Shown: piece by piece, positions 11,099 through 32,345 of the stretch
Layout: every line of letters begins with the position of its first letter
How positions within the stretch are numbered: the first letter of the stretch is position 1
NCBI GenBank assembly: GCA_002067705.1
Contig: MVRL01000199.1
Location: 1-40,704 of the forward strand
Length of the DNA: 40,704 nt
Source of the DNA: Methanosaeta sp. PtaU1.Bin112
GTDB taxonomy: Archaea; Halobacteriota; Methanosarcinia; Methanotrichales; Methanotrichaceae
Direction of reading: 5' to 3'
Notes under the pieces: generated by a model
Database searches by the model: none
Told to the model about the DNA's origin: nothing
Seen by the model: only the letters and a program-made list of their open reading frames with translations
Program-made: the position numbers and the translations under genes

Positions 11099-13252
11099 AT
11101 GAAGAAATTAGCTGCAATTACGCTTACATCGATGTTTCTGCTATTAGCGGCAGCGATGGTAGTTGGAGCTGTCGACTCTGTCGAGATCCGCGGACAGGTT
11201 GCCACTGGCAACTTCGAGTGGACCGCCCAGAATTTCGCTGGCTTCTACTACGATATCGATGATGACCTGGGAACTGAGAAGCTCACCACGTCTATTACTG
11301 AGGGCAACAAGCTCCAGGAACCCAGCGGTGTATCTTACACCACAACTGTACAGAAGAATGACTTCGACTTCGATGAATGGGGATTCTACAACGTTATCGG
11401 ATTCCAGGCCAACAAGTACTTCGCTGGCTACCTCAACGACGAAGCAGTCGATGATGCCAACGAGATCCTGTTCAAGGAATCCACCGACGAGAACTCCCTC
11501 TCTGACGAGCAGCTCGAAGCCATCCTGATGGATAATGATGATGAGATGACCGTCACATCCGGCACACCCCTCAAGCTGGAAGAGGGATACGAGCTGGCTA
11601 TCAAGTCCATTGATATCGACGGCAACAAGGTTTACCTCGAGCTCTCCAAGGATGGAGCCGTTGTAGACAGCAAAGTCATCTCCCCGTCCAAGGATAACCC
11701 GACCATGTCCGACAAGACCTACTACTACAAGAAGGATGTCGGAGACTCCAAGGATCTGGTAGTTATCGCTGCTCACTTCAAGAACGCTTTCCGCGGCTCT
11801 GACTCAAACCTGGCAACCGTTGACGGCATCTGGCAGATTTCCGATGTTCCAACCGAGGTCAAGGTCGACACTGAGTACGAGAAGATGAGAATCGCAAGCG
11901 TCTCTGCCGATACCATCACCATGGACAACAAGGATAACACAGTCACTCTGAGCAAGAACAAGGACATCGATCTGATGGGCGACGTCAAGATCATAACCTC
12001 CGATCAGGATGTAGTCGACGACGCTAACCCACAGAGGTACTACATAGCCAAGGAAATAACAGCACCCGGCACCTATGAGGTTCGCGGACAGGTTGCCACC
12101 GGCAACTTCGAGTGGACTGCCAAGAATTTCGCTGGCTTCTACTACGATATCGATGACGACCTGGGAACTGAGAAGCTCACCACCACAATCACAGAAGGCA
12201 ACAAGCTTCAGGAACCCAGCGGCGTAGCCTACACCACAACCGTCCAGAAGAACGACTTCGACTTCGATGAATGGGGATTCTACAACGTCATCGGATTCCA
12301 GGCCAACAAGTACTTCGCTGGCTACCTCAACGACGAAGCAGTCGATGATGCCAACGAGATCCTGTTCAAGGAATCCACCGACGAGAACTCCCTCTCTGAC
12401 GAGCAGCTCGAAGCCATCCTGATGGATAATGATGATGAGATGACCGTCACATCCGGCACACCCCTCAAGCTGGAAGAGGGATACGAGCTGGCTATCAAGT
12501 CCATTGATATCGACGGCAACAAAGTTTACCTCGAGCTCTCCAAGGATGGAGCCGTTGTAGACAGCAAAGTCATCTCCCCGTCCAAGGATAACCCGACCAT
12601 GTCCGACAAGACCTACTACTACAAGAAGGATGTCGGAGACTCCAAGGATCTGGTAGTTATCGCTGCTCACTTCAAGAACGCTTTCCGCGGCTCTGACTCA
12701 AACCTGGCAACCGTTGACGGCATCTGGCAGATTTCCGATGTTCCAACCGAGGTCAAGGTCGACACAGAGTACGACAAGATGAGAATCGCTAGCGTCTCTG
12801 CCGACACAATCACCATGGACAACAAGGACAACACAGTCACTCTGAGCAAGAACAAGGACATCGATCTGATGGGCGACGTCAAGATCAAGACATCCGATCA
12901 GGATGTAGTCGACGACGCTAACCCGCAGAGATACTACATATACAAGGAAGTCACCATCGAGGGCGCTGCTGCACCCGTCGCTGAGGCTGCACCTGTCGTT
13001 GAGGCCGCTCCCGCTGCCGAAGCCGCACCCGTAGCTGAAGCCCCCGCAGCTGAAGCTGCTCCAGTAGTTGAAGAGAACAAGACCGAAGAGGCACCCGCCG
13101 CTGAGGCACCCGCTGCTGAGCACGCTGCTGAGCCCGCCAAGGAAGAGAACAAGACCGAGACAGGCGCTAAGGAGCAGCCCGGATTCGAGAGCATTCTCGC
13201 CATAACCGGCCTCCTGGCAGTCGCCTTCCTGGTACTTGGCAGAAGAGAGTAA
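11099..13252 (+). CDS. S-layer protein with tandem S-layer (DUF1608-type) domains and PGF-CTERM tail
   Basis: 717 aa. Signal peptide at 1-24 (MKKLAAITLTSMFLLLAAAM, cut after VGA). Two consecutive copies of a roughly 290-residue domain begin EIRGQVATGNFEWTAQNF (about 29) and EVRGQVATGNFEWTAKNF (about 327), the tandem arrangement of Methanosarcina-type S-layer proteins. Both are strongly acidic. A Pro/Ala/Glu-rich stalk (about 625-690, repeats of EAAPVAEA) leads to a PGF-CTERM signal: PGF at 694-696, a hydrophobic helix and a final GRRE. That signal is recognised by archaeosortase A, which cuts it and attaches a lipid anchor. AGGAGGT lies 6 nt before the ATG. The copies are unusually alike at DNA level. 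Confidence 0.9.
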   Translation: MKKLAAITLTSMFLLLAAAMVVGAVDSVEIRGQVATGNFEWTAQNFAGFYYDIDDDLGTEKLTTSITEGNKLQEPSGVSYTTTVQKNDFDFDEWGFYNVIGFQANKYFAGYLNDEAVDDANEILFKESTDENSLSDEQLEAILMDNDDEMTVTSGTPLKLEEGYELAIKSIDIDGNKVYLELSKDGAVVDSKVISPSKDNPTMSDKTYYYKKDVGDSKDLVVIAAHFKNAFRGSDSNLATVDGIWQISDVPTEVKVDTEYEKMRIASVSADTITMDNKDNTVTLSKNKDIDLMGDVKIITSDQDVVDDANPQRYYIAKEITAPGTYEVRGQVATGNFEWTAKNFAGFYYDIDDDLGTEKLTTTITEGNKLQEPSGVAYTTTVQKNDFDFDEWGFYNVIGFQANKYFAGYLNDEAVDDANEILFKESTDENSLSDEQLEAILMDNDDEMTVTSGTPLKLEEGYELAIKSIDIDGNKVYLELSKDGAVVDSKVISPSKDNPTMSDKTYYYKKDVGDSKDLVVIAAHFKNAFRGSDSNLATVDGIWQISDVPTEVKVDTEYDKMRIASVSADTITMDNKDNTVTLSKNKDIDLMGDVKIKTSDQDVVDDANPQRYYIYKEVTIEGAAAPVAEAAPVVEAAPAAEAAPVAEAPAAEAAPVVEENKTEEAPAAEAPAAEHAAEPAKEENKTETGAKEQPGFESILAITGLLAVAFLVLGRRE
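11183..12046 (+). repeat. S-layer internal duplication, copy 1
   Basis: Aligns with 12077-12940 at a constant offset of 894 bp. Bases 11396-11871 match copy 2 with one synonymous mismatch (g11629 against a12523), while the about 210 bp before and the stretch after show many differences, mostly synonymous. Confidence 0.9.
12077..12940 (+). repeat. S-layer internal duplication, copy 2
   Basis: Second copy of the domain-coding duplication. The near-identical core is 12290-12765. The ends carry their own synonymous changes and a few replacements, for example Q to K after WTA, and E to D near YEKMRIAS. Confidence 0.9.
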
Positions 13253-13302: not shown

Positions 13303-13388
13303 AAGTCAATTCATTCAAATTAAACCTATATCACACCAGAAAAGATATGGATTGCTAGGAAATGCAAATCAAAGGAGGACCAACAATA

Positions 13389-13769
13389 ATGAAGCTTGTA
13401 TCAATAATGCTCATAGCTTTGATGATGCTATTCTCAGTGGCTATGGCCGAAAACGCTGAAGAGACCGCCGTTAAAGAAGCTGCAGAGGCGGATATCAATG
13501 CCACAGAGCATGCCGTCGCGGAAGAGGCAAAAGAGACCGCAGCTGCAGTTTCCGAGAGTGCAAGCGCCGAGGCTAAGCAGGTAGAAGAGAAGGCTACTGA
13601 AGCCGTTAAGACCGAAGAGCAGAAAGCTACTGAAGCCGTCAAGACCGAAGAGCAGAAAGCTACTGAAGCTGTCAAGACCGAAGAGCAGAAAGCTACTGGA
13701 TTTGAGGGCATCCTCGCAGCTGCCGGCCTGCTGGCAATTGCATTACTAGTTCAGAGCAGAAGAGAGTAG
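13389..13769 (+). CDS. Small exported Ala/Glu/Lys-rich repeat protein with TGF variant of the PGF-CTERM tail
   Basis: 126 aa. Signal peptide MKLVSIMLIALMMLFSVAMA, then a low-complexity region rich in Ala, Glu and Lys predicted to be helical, with three 11-residue repeats ATEAVKTEEQK. The C-terminus (from residue 103) reads TGFEGILAAAGLLAIALL and ends SRRE, parallel to the S-layer tail, but with Thr in place of the Pro of PGF. AAAGGAGG at 13371-13378 precedes the ATG by 10 nt, so the in-frame ATG at 13362 is rejected. Probably a cell-surface stalk or spacer protein made alongside the S-layer protein. I know of no named family. Confidence 0.75.
   Translation: MKLVSIMLIALMMLFSVAMAENAEETAVKEAAEADINATEHAVAEEAKETAAAVSESASAEAKQVEEKATEAVKTEEQKATEAVKTEEQKATEAVKTEEQKATGFEGILAAAGLLAIALLVQSRRE
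13593..13697 (+). repeat. 33-bp tandem repeat inside the small surface protein gene
   Basis: Three copies of a 33-bp unit start at 13593, 13626 and 13659, each encoding ATEAVKTEEQK, plus a partial fourth at 13692. Copies differ only at synonymous positions (GTT/GTC, GCC/GCT), so copy number could change by slippage. Confidence 0.9.
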
Positions 13770-29165: not shown

Positions 29166-32100
29166 TTATGCATTGAAGGTCTCCATTTCGCTGCTCAAAC
29201 GATGCAGCTCCTTTGTATCCAGAGAGAGTGGATCGATATGCACAAGCATTATAGCGTTCTTTAGAGCGATCTCATCTCTCTGAGACTGAACAAACCTGAG
29301 CACGGTCTCGTAGTTGCTCTGCGTGATGAGATATCCCATTCCCTCCAGCAATATAATAGGATAATTGGCCCTGGCCAGGAAGTCAGAGATTATGCTGGAA
29401 AGACGGGGAAAGTTGGTCGGGTCCACGGTCTTGTATCCAGGCTCGCTCTTCTGCGTCAGCCATATTACCGTATCCGTGGGTACATTGAACCTCTCACTGA
29501 GGGTAGCGGGATTATAGCGACTCATGCAAAGGCCATCCATGCCGTGCCTCACCAGCTCGCTAAATAACTCCAGGCTCTTTTGCGGCTTTTCTTCGGCGAT
29601 AATGTATGTAGTCCCAGGAATAAGAGAGATCTCATACGGACTTCGTCCATAGCTCTTCATGAGCTCTGCCAGAGTGGTAACAATGTCGAAGGCGGGATCG
29701 TATGACTTTATGATCTTGCCCAGCCTTCTTACTGCCACAAAGAAGCTGCGCCTTGTCAGCGACAGATCCGGGCGGACGTTTAGAGACATGCCGAACTGCA
29801 ATGCGCTGTTCATCTCAGGCTCGCAGGCGCTGACTGAATCATCTGAGAGCGACTGCATTTTCTTTGCAGTCTCAAAGAATTCTCCGGAGGCTATTTGATC
29901 ATTGGCTTGCATAACTGCTTCTCTTCTCGCATCATCGTGAAGTTGGGAGAGCATGGCATCGGAGAAGACCTGGAAGAGATAGCTGGAGAGGGGACCTAAC
30001 GAAAAGAGCAGCTCTTTTGCCTCATTAATGCTCTCAGTCATCTCCATATGGACAAAATCCGGGTCTTCTGCCAATAAGAAATGTGATTTGCGGGCCAGAA
30101 GCTCTATTTGGTAGACATAGTCGAGCATCTCTCTATGCGGGACTCGCCCTTCGTTTTCTTTGATGAGCCGTCCAATGCTGTCTATGAGAACGATGCTGTT
30201 CTTGCTGGACTCGACGAACGACTTTATAGTTACAAAGAGCAGAGGCAGATTTCTGGGAGAGATGTATCGATCGCTTCCTTTTTCATCGGAAAGTTTGATG
30301 ATGGGCGTCTCGGTAAATCCCCATTGCCTCCTCACATCTTCAGGAGCGTAATGCGTGATGCATAGCCCCTCTACGCCATGAGTGATCTGATCGGTGAAGA
30401 CCTCGTAGGCAATCTCAGGCACGATATAGATCTTTCCCCGCGCCAGAGCATACGCAGGGAGGGTCTCCTTGGCCGCCTCAATCACCGGTTTCACAGCCAC
30501 ATGATATTGCACAATCATCTTGGTAGCCGAAGGTCCCACCGAACCGGTAAGCGTCTTTTCAAATTGGCCCCACAACTGTCGAAGCTGGTCCGACCCGATC
30601 TTCTCGCGGCTGGTTCCCAGACGCTCGAGGTAGGCATCGACCTCTATCCTGGCAGGAGTCTCACCAATGTAATGCGCCAGCGTTGACTCCATCTCTTCAA
30701 CAGTTCCCTGGTGTATAGGTTTTTTGTCCAGCAAATGAGAAGATCTTTCCTGCTGGTAGGCATCAACGAAGCAAGCTGCAGTGCTTTCTTCATCCGAACT
30801 GGGTTTGCTTGCCAAAGATACGAGAACATACAGGCTGCAGTTGATGAGAAGGGTCCAGAATGCAGAATTTGTCCAGATATCCAGGTCGAGCCCGAAGAGA
30901 TTGGTGGGCCTGAGGACGGCTATGTCCAGCGGCCCGTCTCTTACCAGTTCTACCAGCCAGTCATTGCCTTTTGCAATTGTAGGAATCAGGGCCGTATAAG
31001 CCCAGAGCAAAAATCCAGAGGTCAGGCCCGTCATGGCGCCTTTTCGGTTGCCATTCTTCCAGTAGAGGCCACCCAAAGCGGCTGGTGCAAGCTGACTGGC
31101 CGCAAGAAAAGAGACTACACCGATATCTGCGAGAGTCTGGTAAGCGACCGCGCGGGAGAAAAGATATCCCAAGAGAACAACCAGAAGTATATTTGCCCTT
31201 CTCGTATTGAGGAGTGTACTGGCCAGATTTCCATCCTTCTTGATATGACCCAGGACATAAGGCATCTCCAGATCGTTGAGCAGCATGGTACCTACAGCAA
31301 CCGATTCGATCAGGATCATAGCCGTAGCGGCTGAAGTGCCGCCTATGAACACGAAAAGAGAGAGAGCATCCTGGCCCATTGTGTAAGGTATGGTTATTAC
31401 AAAGGCATCCTTCAGGCCAGGCGTATTGAGTAGCACACCGCCCCAGGCGATTGCAGGAACAAATAAATTGATCAGCAACAGATAAAGAGGAAATAGCCAC
31501 ATAGCCGTCTTGAGATGCGACTCATCGGAGTTTTCCACAACCATGACATGAAACTGCCTGGGCAGAAACAATATGGCAAAGAAGGAGGATAGCGTCAAGG
31601 TGAACCAGAGCACCGGCTCTATGTCCATCAGCGTATCGTATGCCGGATTTTTTACAGCCAGATCTATCATTCCGCTCGTAATATACCCATATCCGGAAAA
31701 AATGCCGTAGGCGACGTAGAATCCTACAAAGAGAAAGGCTACCAGCTTTACCAGGGACTCAAAGGCCACCACGGCGATTAAGCCCTCATGTCGCTCCATG
31801 GGATCGAGGTGTCGGGCTCCAAAGATCACAGCGAAGGCCCCCAGGAGAACAGCTACTACCAGCTTGCTTTCCACATTAAGGCCCAGGAGCACGATGTTCG
31901 ATCCACTCAATATATCAAGAGATGTGGAGATAGCAATGAGCTGCAGTGCGACATAAGGCGTTACTAGAATCATGCTCAATGCTGCCACTACGGCACCTAT
32001 GGTGTAGCTTCGTCCGTAGCGAAAGCTGATAAAATCGGAAATTGATGTCAGGCGATGCTCTTTTGAGACGCGAATCATCTTTCGGATTATGATCCATCCG

Positions 32101-32345
32101 ACAGTCATGGCCAAGACTGGCCCCAGGTAAATAGGCAGAAATTCCAGGCCGGTGGAAGCCGCTCTTCCGATAGAGCCGTAAAAGGTCCATGCCGAGACAT
32201 AAACACATAGAGAGAGGGCATAGACATAGGGATTGGCAACGATGCTCTTTCCCAAACGCTTTTTTGTATCCGCATACCTGGCTATGCCAAAGAGCAGCAG
32301 CAGATAAAGAATCATTAAGACCAGAGCGACATGCGGGCCGATCAA
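29166..32345 (-). CDS. Sodium:solute symporter-type receptor fused to two DUF835-like domains
   Basis: 1059 aa. Residues 1 to about 510 are an SSS transporter core with about 13 helices (YVSAWTFYGSIGRAASTGLE, VAFESLVKLVAFLFVGFYVA, FIGGTSAATAMILIESVAVG). This subtype resembles the sensor-linked SSS modules of CbrA-like kinases. A linker of about 530-630 (QLWGQFEKTLTGSVGPSATK) resembles the STAC domain found between SSS and kinase. Two DUF835-like domains follow, about 635-760 (KIYIVPE, GVEGLCITHYAPEDVR, SIVLIDSIGRLI) and about 920-1050 (TTYIIAEEKP, GMDGLCMSRYNPATLS, PIILLEGMGYLI). No kinase is present. Starts at a TTG overlapping the preceding stop as TTGA, with GGGGGAA upstream. Last gene of a three-gene operon. 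Confidence 0.85.
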   Translation of the reverse strand: MIGPHVALVLMILYLLLLFGIARYADTKKRLGKSIVANPYVYALSLCVYVSAWTFYGSIGRAASTGLEFLPIYLGPVLAMTVGWIIIRKMIRVSKEHRLTSISDFISFRYGRSYTIGAVVAALSMILVTPYVALQLIAISTSLDILSGSNIVLLGLNVESKLVVAVLLGAFAVIFGARHLDPMERHEGLIAVVAFESLVKLVAFLFVGFYVAYGIFSGYGYITSGMIDLAVKNPAYDTLMDIEPVLWFTLTLSSFFAILFLPRQFHVMVVENSDESHLKTAMWLFPLYLLLINLFVPAIAWGGVLLNTPGLKDAFVITIPYTMGQDALSLFVFIGGTSAATAMILIESVAVGTMLLNDLEMPYVLGHIKKDGNLASTLLNTRRANILLVVLLGYLFSRAVAYQTLADIGVVSFLAASQLAPAALGGLYWKNGNRKGAMTGLTSGFLLWAYTALIPTIAKGNDWLVELVRDGPLDIAVLRPTNLFGLDLDIWTNSAFWTLLINCSLYVLVSLASKPSSDEESTAACFVDAYQQERSSHLLDKKPIHQGTVEEMESTLAHYIGETPARIEVDAYLERLGTSREKIGSDQLRQLWGQFEKTLTGSVGPSATKMIVQYHVAVKPVIEAAKETLPAYALARGKIYIVPEIAYEVFTDQITHGVEGLCITHYAPEDVRRQWGFTETPIIKLSDEKGSDRYISPRNLPLLFVTIKSFVESSKNSIVLIDSIGRLIKENEGRVPHREMLDYVYQIELLARKSHFLLAEDPDFVHMEMTESINEAKELLFSLGPLSSYLFQVFSDAMLSQLHDDARREAVMQANDQIASGEFFETAKKMQSLSDDSVSACEPEMNSALQFGMSLNVRPDLSLTRRSFFVAVRRLGKIIKSYDPAFDIVTTLAELMKSYGRSPYEISLIPGTTYIIAEEKPQKSLELFSELVRHGMDGLCMSRYNPATLSERFNVPTDTVIWLTQKSEPGYKTVDPTNFPRLSSIISDFLARANYPIILLEGMGYLITQSNYETVLRFVQSQRDEIALKNAIMLVHIDPLSLDTKELHRLSSEMETFNA

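Follow-up and report, generated by a model that had tools for sequence, protein, structure and literature searches.

The S-layer protein gene described here contains two tandem domains that stem from an old duplication, and it very probably evolves in partial concert, through an ancient tandem duplication followed by recurrent intragenic gene conversion that spares the domain ends. The gene lies in a window (the whole stretch of DNA that was analyzed, 40,704 bp) corresponding to one entire contig (C199) of a draft genome of 3.44 Mb, which comprises 200 contigs with 3.7% contamination.

Results

A tandem-domain S-layer gene of the Methanosarcina type

Based on its protein features, the gene (Table 1) is predicted to be the Methanothrix form of the tandem-domain S-layer protein of the Methanosarcina type. 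PF07752 matches the product in two stretches (592 bits, above the curated cut-off). A PF18204 match (PGF-CTERM) marks the C-terminal anchor, and an N-terminal hydrophobic, signal-like segment can be read from the sequence. Among solved structures, the sole match to the gene product is 3u2g/3u2h, which represents MA0829 of Methanosarcina acetivorans. The predicted layout is like that of the major S-layer proteins of Methanosarcina (MA0829, Mbar_A1758, and MM1976; tandem DUF1608/PF07752), in which a signal peptide, two tandem domains, and a C-terminal anchor are likewise combined (PMC3361143).

Table 1. Coordinates of the S-layer gene and its parts in the window
Feature	Coordinates	Strand	Evidence or remarks
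S-layer protein gene, 717 aa	11099..13252	+	Pfam PF07752 E 8e-179, PF18204 E 4e-7
Layout of the gene product (predicted)			Signal peptide, two PF07752 domains, Ala/Pro/Glu-rich tail, PGF-CTERM anchor
Domain copy 1 (d1)	11183..12064	+	PF07752 match 11201-12004; repeat alignment
Domain copy 2 (d2)	12077..12958	+	PF07752 match 12095-12898; repeat alignment
Homogenized core, copy 1	11396..11871	+	1 mismatch/476 bp versus 12290-12765; dS 0.01
Homogenized core, copy 2	12290..12765	+	1 mismatch/476 bp versus 11396-11871
Diverged left flank, copy 1	11186..11395	+	Partner 12080-12289; 20/210 bp differ, dS 0.47
Diverged right flank, copy 1	11873..12046	+	Partner 12767-12940; 10/174 bp differ, dS 0.26
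Junction between d1 and d2 (AKEITAPGTYEVRGQ)	12047..12091	+	Type shared with orthologues, escapes homogenization; junction motifs of 65 two-domain genes
PGF-CTERM motif	13175..13234	+	PF18204, residues 693-712

Sharp borders of a nearly identical core

The two domain copies are offset by 894 bp and differ at 32 of 864 aligned bases. The initial annotation had described 476 bp with a single synonymous mismatch, a description that proved exact to the base: the sole difference within the core is at 11629/12523, where AAG and AAA encode Lys in both copies, and mismatches at 11395/12289 and 11872/12766 bracket the tract exactly. Its estimate of about 18 differences in the approximately 205 bp before the tract, and its mention of more differences past it, agree with the flank counts listed in Table 1. 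No run of 476 positions with at most one mismatch was obtained in 200,000 random placements of the differences, and a codon-level version of this test likewise gave 0 of 200,000. A stricter run test, which employed trimmed domains and fully identical codons, yielded p = 0.005 for the window gene.

By the NG86 method, dS between d1 and d2 amounts to 0.47 in the left flank, 0.0097 in the core, and 0.26 in the right flank. The gene therefore carries paralogous tracts with locally lowered divergence and sharp borders, which is the pattern by which gene conversion is recognized. Note that dN in the flanks is only ~0.02 at dS values of 0.26 to 0.47, which indicates that selection alone keeps the flank protein alike and that conversion is unnecessary for amino acid uniformity.

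An old duplication with a core homogenized later

The nearest relative found (G021) is ~92% identical at the DNA level. Its contig stops inside the core of copy 1 and thus provides copy 1 only, to residue 189. In the left flank, the two domains of the window gene differ from each other at 20 of 210 positions, and copy 1 of the window gene differs from copy 1 of G021 at 17 of 210. For the part of the core that is comparable with G021, the counts are 1 of 271 within the window gene versus 14 of 271 between species, and this switch between flank and core in relation to G021 yields a Fisher p value of 0.0016. Among 21 diagnostic sites (those of the left flank plus 11629), 13 match copy 1 of G021 and 6 match d2.

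Copy-specific residues at the right end, namely Ile/Lys at the codon at 11993 and Ala/Tyr at the codon at 12047, are common to copies 1 and 2 of the congeneric assembly G011. Most orthologues share a junction of the type ITEPGTYE(V/I/L)RG, and paralogues and family f2 of the class have similar junctions. Because the junction and the copy-specific ends are common to other species, the duplication must predate these species, with homogenization of the core following afterwards. A split between d1 and d2 also extends across genera and families in other paralogue groups. These data are best explained if the 476-bp core, which is seen in one draft contig, was homogenized after the split from G021, with the flanks retaining older copy-specific differences.

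Homogenization recurs across the genus

Domain pairs within a gene are nearest neighbors in 13 of the 14 focal-type two-domain genes of the genus. In a tree built from the core region, domains of the same gene are sisters in 12 of these 14 genes, and a single clade of all d1 domains was rejected on this region (AU p = 0.0002). Paralogous copies are nearer to each other than to their orthologues, as occurs under concerted evolution.

A comparison of both copies in relatives, which the initial annotation had proposed as a check, revealed similar tracts at other positions in most orthologues. The orthologue in G001, a 2-contig genome of 3.0 Mb, has a 413-bp exact tract between its domains, and near-identical patches of 629 bp (G003), 281 bp (G002), 150 bp (G020), and 134 bp (G013) are found elsewhere along the domain. 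In 12 of 15 genes, runs of identical codons are longer than expected by chance. Those that lack significant clustering are Ch14, G012, and G003, the last of which is almost wholly homogenized, with one difference remaining. Part of the clustering reflects constraint, since divergence between species ranges from 18 to 41%, or about twofold, along the domain, with the left part of the domain evolving faster. At the outer ends of the domain, over ~30 codons at the start and ~15 at the finish, the two copies differ in every species. Where the initial reading saw one tract, this survey shows a recurrent process: as judged from the aligned genes, homogenization has occurred repeatedly within this gene across Methanothrix.

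At least 9 of the 26 congeneric assemblies (G004, G007, G008, G009, G011, G014, G018, G021, and G022) break or have a gap within the gene's domains, which is to be expected of long near-identical repeats. A survey of draft genomes is therefore biased toward genes with less homogenization.

Paralogues and other two-domain genes

Homogenization is absent from most of the other two-domain PF07752 proteins in the class, whose domains share 45-63% DNA identity. Values of 54-59% were obtained for two-domain paralogues in the same genome (contigs C107, C102, and C196), and values for the genes sampled from other families of the class are mostly 55-63%. In every well-sampled paralogue group, d1 clusters with d1 and d2 with d2 in separate clades. 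Unlike the window gene, most sampled two-domain genes of family f2 have 56-63% domain identity, group by domain position, and carry no long homogenized tract.

Two genes in genus g11 of family f2, from G031 (L096) and G079 (L094), are partial exceptions, with 75% domain identity and exact patches of 43 and 82 bp, versus 55-63% identity in their relatives. They point to a possible second, independent case of domain homogenization.

A hybrid S-layer paralogue (L037) is located at 717-2543 of contig C30 in the same genome bin (G000). Its domain 1 and the start of its domain 2 closely match the focal gene of G011, after which the sequence switches abruptly to a domain that is ~50% diverged. The gene may be a domain-swap recombinant, or the contig may belong to another species. 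We rejected this paralogue as the donor of the window core because its d1 differs from the core by 18%.

Alternative explanations for the nearly identical core

The faster evolution of the left part of the domain between species could point to an old duplication that is diverging normally except for a core held under strong constraint at the codon or protein level, and the initial annotation had named codon constraint, with the same pattern in orthologues, as a reading to set against homogenization. However, core dS reaches 0.71 against G022, 0.73 against G011, and 0.89-0.92 against contig C30, compared with a value of 0.01, or ~70-fold less, within the gene, and the position of the tract varies among species. 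Synonymous sites in the core are thus free to change between species, and codon constraint, to which we assign almost no probability, was rejected. We also rejected, as highly improbable, a scenario in which the entire domain was duplicated recently and the diverged flanks were brought in later from other alleles or paralogues. Although mosaic genes exist, such as that on contig C30, the junction and the ends typical of each copy recur in other species, and copy 1 of the window gene has a left flank that resembles copy 1 of G021 more than its own copy 2. The earlier preference for local homogenization over a simple recent duplication is supported by the dS contrast along the gene, the core dS between species, the shared ends and junction, and the tracts in orthologues.

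Given a draft of 200 contigs with measurable contamination, and given the many related assemblies that break in this gene, we also considered whether a gap filler or a mis-resolved repeat had pasted one core into the other. Yet the mismatch at 11629 leaves exact runs of 233 bp and 242 bp on its two sides, which does not fit a plain paste, and paired reads should be able to resolve runs of this length. Moreover, distinct flanks are present at both sides of both copies. The runs split by this mismatch and the same behavior in the 2-contig genome, with its long exact tract in the same gene, make an artifact very unlikely. The same footprint, including the spared ends, is predicted by a cycle of unequal crossing-over, in which misaligned sister chromosomes generate alleles with three domains and with one, after which a deletion brings the number back to two, leaving the interior homogenized and the ends old. 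Single-domain forms that start as d1 and end as d2 are indeed present in the drafts of G017 (L028) and G025 (L032), and the G025 form tracks d1 of G010 almost throughout and is of the d2 type only at its extreme end. Nevertheless, these forms may be products of assembly collapse, no three-domain allele was seen among the orthologues, and the cycle takes two steps where conversion takes one. We consider this cycle, the main rival to conversion, unlikely.

Discussion

Homogenization, probably by intragenic conversion

The observed pattern most likely arose through intragenic gene conversion that depends on homologous recombination. Recombination between d1 and d2, located either on the same chromosome or on different chromosome copies, would repeatedly copy internal stretches across the domains, and we infer that this conversion is non-reciprocal. 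The 476-bp core would then represent the latest conversion tract of this lineage, or several such tracts. Two domains are retained in most species, and the chimeric one-domain genes of G017 and G025 are either real or collapsed. The domain ends may be spared because such short, diverged stretches restrict recombination or because the linker residues have different functions. Conversion is probably self-sustaining, in that high identity would invite more exchange and paralogues that have diverged past a threshold would stop converting. Two reports on the polyploid archaeon Haloferax volcanii describe gene conversion between chromosome copies (PMC8223754, PMC11276520).

The hybrid gene on contig C30 suggests reshuffling between S-layer genes. 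It is very improbable, however, that S-layer domain exchange in Methanothrix represents selected surface variation, in which whole domains and sub-domain patches reshuffled within and between S-layer genes would alter the surface that viruses see and the conserved ends would serve as fixed joints.

Relation to known cases of concerted evolution

Long-lasting gene conversion has been reported for tandem mtrA copies in methanogens (PMC4632066), and 26 recurrently concerted genes have been described in prokaryotes in a study that includes seven archaeal genes (PMC6053082). The window gene is like these cases (PMC4632066, PMC6053082) in that old duplicates in methanogens are kept similar by recurrent conversion in many species. 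However, mtrA and the concerted genes are separate genes, whereas the exchange described here takes place between two domains of one gene. No S-layer gene is present in the archaeal table of recurrently concerted genes (PMC6053082). Intragenic homogenization is known in repeat proteins such as spider silk (PMC3933166), where, as here, repeats in one structural protein gene are homogenized and the ends are not. Unlike the long array of spider silk, the window gene is archaeal and has just two long domains. Our search of the open-licence literature for gene conversion or concerted evolution of S-layer genes, and for gene conversion in Methanothrix, found no description of this case. Recurrent concerted evolution of archaeal protein genes has been documented for few genes, none of which is an S-layer gene or an intragenic case in the literature searched.

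If confirmed, the gene would serve as a naturally occurring assay for intragenic conversion in a methanogen that grows slowly and is of global importance, and tract lengths, borders, and the identity threshold could be read from populations. Two cautions follow for users of these data: short-read Methanothrix assemblies break or collapse in this gene, and domain trees of the gene do not follow the history of the two domains.

Other features of the window

A 1059-aa open frame at 29166-32345 on the minus strand has a C-terminal DUF835 domain as its only Pfam match. Just downstream of the S-layer gene, at 13362-13769, is a gene for a small, predicted secreted protein that is rich in Ala, Lys, and Glu and carries a PGF-CTERM motif. 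This gene contains three 33-bp repeats at 13583-13698, and its final 71 bp share 75% identity with the end of the S-layer gene.
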